Assembly: GCF_017255185.1 (NCBI RefSeq)
Contig: NZ_JAFKCZ010000020.1
Span: 1 to 64,000, forward strand
Direction: 5' to 3'
DNA from: Parahaliea mediterranea
Lineage (GTDB): Bacteria; Pseudomonadota; Gammaproteobacteria; Pseudomonadales; Halieaceae
Length of the DNA stretch: 64,000 bases
The position numbers and the translations under genes are program-made. Positions 131-56,408 of the stretch are shown piece by piece. Under the pieces are notes generated by a model, which saw nothing but the letters and a program-made list of their open reading frames with translations, had not been told where the DNA came from and did no database searches. Numbering within the stretch: position 1 is the first letter of the stretch; the number at the start of each line of letters is the position of its first letter.

Positions 131-137
131 TGTTTAC

Positions 138-345
138 TCGACCACCGGGTGCGTGGCGCAATGAATTGCGCCCTACAGGGAGCGCACGCCACCCCCCTGT
201 AGGGTCGAATTCATTCGACCACCGGGCGCGTGGCGCAATGAATTGCGCCCTACAGGGAGCGCACGCCACCCCCTGTAGGGTCGAATTCATTCGACCACCG
301 GGCGCGGCGCAATATTGGGTCCGTGACCCTACAATATGGGCGCAA
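138..345. repeat. REP/REPIN-like palindrome array I (period about 76 bp)
   Basis: Alternating 22-base elements, each a GTAG head followed by an 18-base hairpin. Forward copies are at 199-220 and 275-296 with hairpin GGTCGAATTCATTCGACC. Reverse copies are at 155-176 and 232-253, with arms GGCGCAAT and ATTGCGCC. A truncated forward remnant (TCGACC) is at about 138-143, and a degenerate copy at 303-345 overlaps the 3' end of the cardiolipin synthase gene. Same-strand copies repeat every 76-77 bases. The GTAG-plus-hairpin layout is that of REP elements moved by RAYT enzymes (established knowledge); assignment to that class here is inference. Confidence 0.8.
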
Positions 346-30708: not shown

Positions 30709-31566
30709 GTGCTGATTGACTTCCACACCCATTCTACCGCCTCTGACGGGGAGTTGAGCCCCGCCGACCTGCTGGCCAGGGCGGTGGCGCGCAATATCCG
30801 CTATTTTGCCATTACCGACCACGACACCGTGGAAGGTTACCTGGCGGTGCGCGACGCCGCCCTTGGCGAGGACCTGACCCTGGTGTCGGGGGTCGAATTC
30901 TCCTGTCGCTGGTCCGGGGTTACCGTGCATATCGTCGGCCTGGGCATGGATGTGGCGCACCCCGCCATGCGCGAGGGCCTGGCGCGTCTCGCCACTGCCC
31001 GCCACGAGCGCGGCGCCAAAATCGCCCGCCGGCTGGATAAACTGGGCTTTCCCGGGGCCCTCGACGGGGCCGTGGCGGAGGCCGGGGACAGCCAGCTGGG
31101 GCGGCCGCATTTCGCCGCCTGGATGTTGGCCCAGGGGCATGTGGCGACGGTTGGCGAGGCCTTCGACAAATACCTGGGCCAGGGCAAGCCGGGGGACGTG
31201 AAGGCGTTCTGGCCGGAGTTGGCGGAGGTGACCGGCTGGATCGTGGCCGCGGGCGGCGTCGCCATTGTTGCCCACCCCCTCAAGTACAAGCTGACCGCCA
31301 GTAAATTGCGCCGCCTGGTGGCGGATTTCCGGGCCGCCGGGGGGACCGCGCTGGAGCTGGTCAACGGCCGGCAGACGCCGGACCAGACCGCGCAACTGCG
31401 CCGTCTCGCCCGGGAGTGCTGCCTGGCGGTTTCCGCCGGCAGTGATTACCACCGCGACAGCACCTTCGGGCCGCAGCTCGGGGTGGAGTTCAGGGCGCCT
31501 GAGGGTTTGCCCTGCGTGTGGGAGCGCTGGCAGGGCCCCGCGACTTCCCGGGAGGCAGCGCTGTGA
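30709..31566 (+). CDS. rnm: PHP-domain nucleotide phosphatase/exoribonuclease (RnmA/YciV type)
   Basis: 285 residues of the PHP metallophosphoesterase family. Metal ligands are in FHTHSTASDGE, ITDHDTVEGY, GVEFSC and SAGSDYHRD. The E. coli homologue YciV hydrolyses 3',5'-nucleoside bisphosphates and trims 5' ends of small RNAs and rRNA. The start is GTG at 30709. Divergent from yciB across about 120 bases; its stop overlaps the start of yciO by four bases (GTGA). Confidence 0.9.
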   Translation: MLIDFHTHSTASDGELSPADLLARAVARNIRYFAITDHDTVEGYLAVRDAALGEDLTLVSGVEFSCRWSGVTVHIVGLGMDVAHPAMREGLARLATARHERGAKIARRLDKLGFPGALDGAVAEAGDSQLGRPHFAAWMLAQGHVATVGEAFDKYLGQGKPGDVKAFWPELAEVTGWIVAAGGVAIVAHPLKYKLTASKLRRLVADFRAAGGTALELVNGRQTPDQTAQLRRLARECCLAVSAGSDYHRDSTFGPQLGVEFRAPEGLPCVWERWQGPATSREAAL

Positions 31567-32186
31567 GCCAGTTTTTCCAGGTCCACCCGGAGAACCCGCA
31601 GGCGCGGCTGATCAGCCAGGCGGTGGATATCATCCGCGGCGGTGGCGTGGTGGTCTATCCCACCGACTCCGCCTACGCCCTGGGCTGCCACATCGGCGAC
31701 AAACAGGCCCTGGACCGTATCCGGCGTATCCGCCAGCTGGACGACCGCCACAATTTCACCCTGGTGTGCCGCGACCTGTCGGAAATTGCCACCTACGCGC
31801 GCGTGGACAACACGGTTTACCGCCTGCTCAAGCACGCCACGCCGGGGCCTTATACTTTCATACTGCGGGCCACCTCCGAGGTGCCGCGGCGACTGATGCA
31901 CGCCAAGCGCAAGACCGTGGGCCTGCGGGTGCCCGACAACGCCATCGCCCAGGCCCTGCTGGCGGACCTGGGCTACCCGCTGATGAGCGTGACCCTGATC
32001 ATGCCCGGCGATGAATACCCGCTGATCGACCCCTACGACATTCGCGAGTTACTGGAACACCAGGTGGACCTGGTGATTGACGGCGGCTACTGCGGCATGG
32101 AACCCACCACGGTGGTGGACCTGGCGGACGACCTGCCGGTGGTGACGCGCCAGGGCAAGGGCGACCCCGAGCCATTTGCGGTGTAG
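31563..32186 (+). CDS. yciO: YciO family protein (Sua5/YciO/YrdC fold)
   Basis: 207 residues of the double-stranded-RNA-binding YrdC fold. Segments YPTDSAYALGC, HNFTLVCRDLSEIATYARV and PGPYTFILRAT are typical of YciO, the paralogue of the threonylcarbamoyl-AMP synthase TsaC. The GTG start overlaps the PHP gene stop and has GGGAGG eight bases before it. The stop TAG is the TAG of the first GTAG head in palindrome array II. Confidence 0.92.
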   Translation: MSQFFQVHPENPQARLISQAVDIIRGGGVVVYPTDSAYALGCHIGDKQALDRIRRIRQLDDRHNFTLVCRDLSEIATYARVDNTVYRLLKHATPGPYTFILRATSEVPRRLMHAKRKTVGLRVPDNAIAQALLADLGYPLMSVTLIMPGDEYPLIDPYDIRELLEHQVDLVIDGGYCGMEPTTVVDLADDLPVVTRQGKGDPEPFAV

Positions 32187-32499
32187 GGTCGAATTCATTC
32201 GACCACGGCGGAATGAATTCCGCCCTACAGGGGAATACCCCCCCGACCGTGTAGGGTCGAATTCATTCGACCACGGCGGAATGAATTCCGCCCTACAGGG
32301 GAATACCCCCACGACCGTGTAGGGTCGAATTCATTCGACCACGGCGGAATGAATTCCGCCCTACAGGGGAATACCCCCCGACCGTGTAGGGTCGAATTCA
32401 TTCGACCACGGCGGAATGGATTCCGCCCTACAGGGGGAATGCACCCGGACCGCGTGGGGTCGAGGGCCGGCCCCGCTTTTTGGGTCATTCATTCGACCA
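32183..32499. repeat. REPIN-like palindrome array II (four 68-bp units plus a degenerate fifth)
   Basis: Units start at 32183, 32251, 32319 and 32386 (lengths 68, 68, 67, 68), with a decayed copy from 32454 to about 32499. Each holds a forward REP (GTAG head, hairpin GGTCGAATTCATTCGACC), a two-base AC spacer and an inverted REP (hairpin GGCGGAATGAATTCCGCC, then CCCTAC). The inverted pair spans 46 bases; a 22-base spacer follows. Two inverted REPs as one repeating unit is the REPIN arrangement. It fills the yciO-scpA gap (32187-32550) and overlaps the yciO stop codon. Confidence 0.88.
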
Positions 32500-32518
32500 A
32501 ATTCCCGCCGCGTTCAGG

Positions 32519-55882: not shown

Positions 55883-56179
55883 ATGACCAAGAGCGAACTG
55901 ATTGAAACCATAGCGGCCAAGCAGACCCAGCTTTCCGCCAAGGATGTCGAGCTGGCGGTGAAGACCATTCTGGAGCACATGTCGCAGGCGCTGTCCGTGG
56001 GCGAGCGCATCGAGATTCGCGGTTTCGGCAGCTTTTCGCTGCACTACCGGGAGCCACGCCGCGGCCGCAACCCCAAAACCGGCGATACCGTGGAGCTCAC
56101 CGGCAAGTACGTGCCCCACTTCAAGCCGGGCAAGGAGTTGCGCGAGCGGGTCAACCTGGGCCTGCAAGGAGCACTGTAG
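55883..56179 (+). CDS. ihfB: Integration host factor subunit beta
   Basis: 98 residues of the HU/IHF family. The DNA-bending arm carries GRNPKTGD, and [24 protein letters not shown] is typical of IhfB. It pairs with IhfA to bend DNA sharply. The C-terminus ends four residues or so beyond the E. coli protein, with QGAL, and the stop TAG belongs to the first GTAG head of palindrome array III. Confidence 0.97.
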
Positions 56180-56334
56180 GGCCGAATTCATTCGGCCAGC
56201 CGGGCCATGAACGAAGCCCCCGTAGGGCCGAATTCATTCGGCCAGCCGGGCCACAACCGAAGCTCCCGTAGGGTCGAATGTATTCGGCCAGCCGGGCACA
56301 GCCGCAACTCCCGCGGGGCCGAATACATTCGGTC
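56176..56334 (+). repeat. REP-like palindrome array III (direct tandem, 46-bp period)
   Basis: Four copies at 56176-56197, 56222-56243, 56268-56289 and 56313-56334, all in the same orientation, with spacing 46, 46 and 45. The hairpin of the first two is GGCCGAATTCATTCGGCC. Copies 3 and 4 each carry one change that leaves a G-T type pair, and copy 4 has a decayed head (GCGG). The 24-base spacers are similar to each other (AGCCGGGC at their start). No inverted partner copies exist, unlike arrays I and II. Confidence 0.85.
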
Positions 56335-56408
56335 TCCGCCAGGCGGATAAAACTGAGACTACACGGGTATCACCTTCGCCCCCGACACATGCGAACAGGC
56401 CCCAGACC

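Follow-up and report, generated by a model that had tools for sequence, protein, structure and literature searches.

GTAG-type REP heads and the stop codons of flanking genes in Parahaliea mediterranea

REP sequences lie mostly between genes. The termini of GTAG-tagged REPs often supply the TAG stop codon of flanking open reading frames, and protein tails encoded by REPs have also been described (Di Nocera et al. 2013; PMC3733652). Characterised RAYTs cleave single-stranded DNA at C|T, with the GTAG tetranucleotide serving as guide (PMC8266576). The choice of landing site by REPs is poorly known, and an exact C|TG-TAG junction would tie the cleavage chemistry of the RAYT to the persistence of the REP. 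Here we consider a 64,000-nucleotide stretch of DNA from the marine bacterium P. mediterranea (the window), in which every REP array has an in-frame stop codon at one edge (3/3), together with the REPs of the genome and the C-termini of orthologous proteins.

REP arrays in the window and in the genome

The gene yciO, recognised like the others by its sequence, occupies positions 31518-32186 of the forward strand and ends in GTG followed by TAG (32181..32186), the last G and the TAG forming the head of an exact GTAG-REP, GTAGGGTCGAATTCATTCGACC (32183-32204). The closest matches to the YciO protein are in P. aestuarii and P. mediterranea (Halieaceae), at 90% amino-acid identity. The array that begins there (32183..32431, forward strand) holds eight exact copies in alternating orientation with a unit of about 68 bp, and is followed by a degenerate copy that extends up to about position 32500. 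The second case is ihfB (55883-56179, forward strand), where the last codon and stop, CTG TAG (56174..56179), again lie on an exact head, GTAGGGCCGAATTCATTCGGCC (56176-56197), the first of four tandem heads in one orientation, the last of them degenerate (56176..56335, forward strand). The third, cls, is read from the reverse strand (1768-329) and ends in TTG TAG (329..334) on a degenerate head, GTAGGGTCACGGACCC (317-332), which has the hairpin form GTAG-GGTC-ACG-GACC and belongs to a reverse-strand array with four exact copies besides (131..332). The first-pass annotation had the three genes stopping on a GTAG head, clear in two cases and degenerate at cls, and this is what we find. At positions 7-131, adjoining the cls array, are four palindromes in succession, each perfect or nearly so (AAGTCCGTATGGACTT, CCAGCCTTCTAAGAAGGCTGG, AGCCCCCTTATAGGGGGCT and TCTGCGTTCTAAGAACGCAGA); they have no match in Rfam, a search of which with the whole window returned a single tRNA and nothing else.

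The palindrome GTAGGGNNNAATNNATTNNNCC occurs in 644 exact copies in the 5.03-Mb genome (45 contigs), compared to none for a reversed control pattern. In a sample of 2.45 Mb, 444 REP copies could be grouped into 108 arrays, the gaps holding them being unidirectional in 55 cases, convergent in 39 and divergent in 5, against 869, 202 and 289 among all intergenic gaps; 6 of the 108 arrays fall within called genes, some of these being loose-threshold matches. The repeats thus have a short palindrome with GTAG at its 5′ foot, a high copy number, and a mostly intergenic distribution that avoids divergent gaps, all of which are features of the GTAG-REP superfamily, and they occur with linkers in alternating orientation, as doublets and as arrays, as expected of BIMEs and REPINs from their orientation patterns and array sizes. 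On these sequence features, they are GTAG-type REPs arranged as BIMEs. The expansion appears to be specific to the P. mediterranea lineage, since relatives are nearly free of copies: three genomes of the sister genus have 9, 19 and 0, and an order-wide search of 294 genomes found at most 38 copies of the motif in any of the 293 others. At many intergenic sites (G000:C1:738, C2:38372, C3:7260 and others) REP pairs are enclosed in a larger, MITE-like repeat of the form GAATGGCACTTACTTAAGTCAAAAACAGGGTATTTTGCCCTCT-REP-REP′-AACGGTTAAGTAAGTGCCATTC.

A single RAYT gene, encoding 159 aa, is present in the genome (L051:1453-1932), with a match to Y1_Tnp and a score of 146.9 bits against NF047646 (REP_Tyr_transpos), for which the cut-off is 80. 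REP arrays border it on both sides, the arrangement of a REPtron. The array downstream of the RAYT gene and the one after psd have a common linker, GCGATATCCCCCCTGTAGGGCGG. Of 401 REP copies considered, 233 have CT immediately before the GTAG, and about 90% have T.

Heads at the stop codon and the ends of the proteins

The head TAG was proposed to be an in-frame stop more often than expected near gene ends. In the 2.45-Mb sample, where a home-made hexamer caller gave 2083 genes, we took all heads that face outward and have a gene running towards them (n=64), and measured how far the head TAG lies from the stop of that gene. The head TAG is exactly the stop in 8 of the 64, or in 9 when the degenerate head at cls is included, and no head of the 64 lies 1-12 nt downstream of a stop. 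Against a background of 0.625 heads per position at 13-60 nt downstream, the Poisson probability of 8 or more is approximately 3e-7. The rate is thus far above chance, yet the overlap concerns a minority of arrays, about 8%, and the three of three in the window are unrepresentative. The genes at distance zero, named by sequence recognition, are those for what we take to be ProB, LptB, RibD, Psd, a MerR-family regulator, a GNAT protein, YciO and IhfB. Most other outward heads are preceded by a C-tract (CCCCT-GTAG), from which the gap at 1-12 nt partly arises, whereas the stop-overlapping heads mostly lack the tract; the spike at zero is independent of this effect. As a control, 8-bp hairpins of the AATNNATT type that start directly after a stop, head first, all follow G-TAG and none of them follows TAA or TGA, while one further stop-abutting hairpin of this type, at uvrD, has its tail against TAA. 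Across the sample TAG is an unusually common stop (615 of the 2083 called genes, 30%), few of these being at REPs.

The distance test has a built-in caveat, in that any in-frame landing within a coding region scores zero by definition, the gene then being called as ending there; therefore the ends of orthologues are the useful test. ProB, LptB, YciO, IhfB and Cls stop at exactly the same codon in three sister species, and wider relatives agree on these five protein ends with few exceptions. The ending VNLGLQxxL of IhfB is normal within its family, and so the suggestion that IhfB ends a few residues later than usual, and with it that of a mobile element setting the C-terminus at YciO, IhfB or Cls, is not borne out: orthologues that lack the element have their stop at the identical codon, and the three window proteins are unchanged by the overlap.

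Elsewhere the picture is different. Compared with the sister proteins, RibD lacks 1-6 residues, Psd has 2-4 more, and the MerR-family regulator has 5-9 more, with a tail that recurs in array linkers; the end of the GNAT protein is variable or ambiguous. The end of Psd is probably set by the element, because its last residues lie within the linker that is also found beside the RAYT gene. Two further proteins have tails that we read from their sequences as translated out-of-frame REP insertions, one of about 36 residues in Dxs (L232, dxs end; G000:C2:50116), which starts in a REP head and for which the sister genomes gave no match at the Dxs end, and one of about 16 residues, ending PPVGSNSFDQIPPPTD, in a YhdP-like protein (G000:C1:475477). 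In murJ (G000:C1:314319) and cysZ (G000:C1:461113) the stop, TAA or TGA, lies in the loop of an inverted REP (GGTCGAATAAATTC and GGTCGAATGAATTC), and both proteins run a few residues beyond most sister-genus ends. To judge by these comparisons REPs do rewrite C-termini in this genome, without changing the three proteins of the window. For annotators this is a warning that in REP-rich genomes TAG usage and short C-terminal tails can be repeat-derived. The gene that follows the MerR-family gene (G000:C4:161034) opens with CTTAGGGGGTATCTTTGAC, a motif known from the programmed frameshift of release factor 2, which is kept in a sister genome (L332).

Origin of the TAG and of the junction

At yciO, ihfB and cls the stop is TGA in all three sisters (9/9), with a last codon of CTC at ihfB (3/3, equal length) and CTC or CTT at cls (3/3, equal length). 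For comparison, among 10 TAG genes of P. mediterranea that have no REP on the stop, the sister also has TAG in 17 of 34 pairs. In the window genes, therefore, a native TGA has probably given way to the TAG of the element, though this contrast rests on few genes. That the TAG comes from the element is less clear at proB and lptB, where two of three sisters already have it, and LptB of G136 reads CTGTAGGGCC without a REP. Between genes the DNA has diverged too far from the sister genus to show, to the nucleotide, the sites as they were before insertion, lptB being a partial exception. The same TAG at the same place without the element, which the first-pass annotation took as counting against its proposal, is found in more distant relatives (CTG TAG of IhfB in G001 and G006, and of Cls in G001), but not in the sister species, which use TGA.

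The reading we prefer, tentatively and at a little under even chances, is that a GTAG-REP mobilised by the RAYT was attached at C|T within the last codon, silently replacing the stop. The single RAYT would mobilise GTAG-type REP/BIME arrays, and a cut at C|T just before GTAG would leave the moved strand beginning T-GTAG. If this strand were joined in frame to a last codon CTN (leucine), at its C|T, or at a comparable NT, the result would be (C)TG-TAG, a junction that would keep both the residue and the length while exchanging the native TGA, TAA or TAG for the TAG of the element. Such silent landings would persist, and most of the others would be purged, in-frame landings upstream causing truncation and out-of-frame ones adding REP-encoded tails. 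We infer both the joining step in P. mediterranea and purging as the cause of the rarity of the alternatives. The sister terminal codon is CTN in 4 of the 5 genes of exact length, compared to a background of 5.7% (P = 5e-5), and NTG-TAG occurs in 7 of the 8 P. mediterranea overlap cases compared to 27% of other genes ending NNG-TAG (P = 7e-4). Against this, the native last codon is GTC or ATC in YciO and CGG in Psd, that is, not CT, and the abundance of CT sites predicts, by a rough estimate, about 0.5 landings at terminal codons where 5-8 are seen. The C-tract found before most other outward heads, and the TAG of two sisters at proB and lptB, also count against it. Though case numbers are small, this amounts to a roughly 10-fold preference for terminal codons beyond CT abundance, and an extra preference, homology-driven fusion to CTGTAG stops, or selection are therefore possible. 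The first-pass annotation had raised insertion targeted to stop codons; joining at a CT dinucleotide agrees better with the data than recognition of the stop codon itself does. A bolder version, which we regard as speculative and rather improbable, is that the RAYT prefers terminal codons through the C|T of a last leucine, the 5′ TGTAG being a built-in leucine and stop that silences landings at gene ends; if true, it would explain both why the REP superfamily starts with GTAG and why its members lie at 3′ ends.

A possible though less likely explanation is that the (C)TGTAG stop was there before, and that the element inserted beside it, or that a deletion between two CTGTAG sequences, one at the stop and one at the head, joined a nearby array to it; the host TAG would be retained and the element would have supplied nothing. 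This accounts for the exact position, the unchanged proteins, the absent C-tract and the NTG-TAG bias, and it fits the REP-free orthologues of IhfB, Cls and LptB and the sister TAGs of ProB and LptB given above. It sits poorly with yciO, ihfB and cls, where the sisters have TGA and a third position other than G, so that each gene would have to have changed twice beforehand, and with the control TAG genes, which usually have a TAG sister.

More doubtful is random insertion near gene ends, with in-frame landings kept where the TAG restores termination and the element setting the C-terminus, as had also been proposed. The differing ends of RibD, Psd and the MerR-family regulator, the variable end of the GNAT protein and the linker residues of Psd are all in its favour, but 5 of the 9 genes have exactly the native length, highly conserved ends included, where some 0.6 landings are expected per position (P(>=5) approximately 5e-4). 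That the head TAG and the stop coincide by chance, in favour of which it can be said that 30% of genes stop with TAG, is contradicted by the distance distribution, with its sharp spike at zero and empty neighbouring positions (P approximately 3e-7), and is highly improbable.

Comparison with known REP systems

The arrays of P. mediterranea are like the GTAG-tagged REP superfamily (PMC3733652) in their GTAG head, palindromic stem and hundreds of copies, and in lying mostly between unidirectional or convergent genes near 3′ ends, though the stem, GGNCGAATNNATTCGNCC, differs. REPtron and RAYT (TnpAREP) systems likewise have one RAYT gene with REP arrays on either side (PMC2817692, PMC8266576); cleavage at C|T is known from the enzymes of E. 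coli, S. maltophilia and Marinomonas, and we attribute it to the P. mediterranea RAYT by analogy. The REPINs of Pseudomonas fluorescens (PMC3116915) are inverted REP pairs with linkers, found as doublets and arrays, as here; excision in populations is documented for them, whereas the P. mediterranea REPs are known from the sequence of one genome. Stop-providing REPs are thus an already known phenomenon. The earlier statement on stop codons (PMC3733652) was made without a distance test or a comparison of orthologues, and what is added here is both of these, in that the rate, the exactness and the orthologue C-termini have been measured for P. mediterranea, together with a testable model of the junction.
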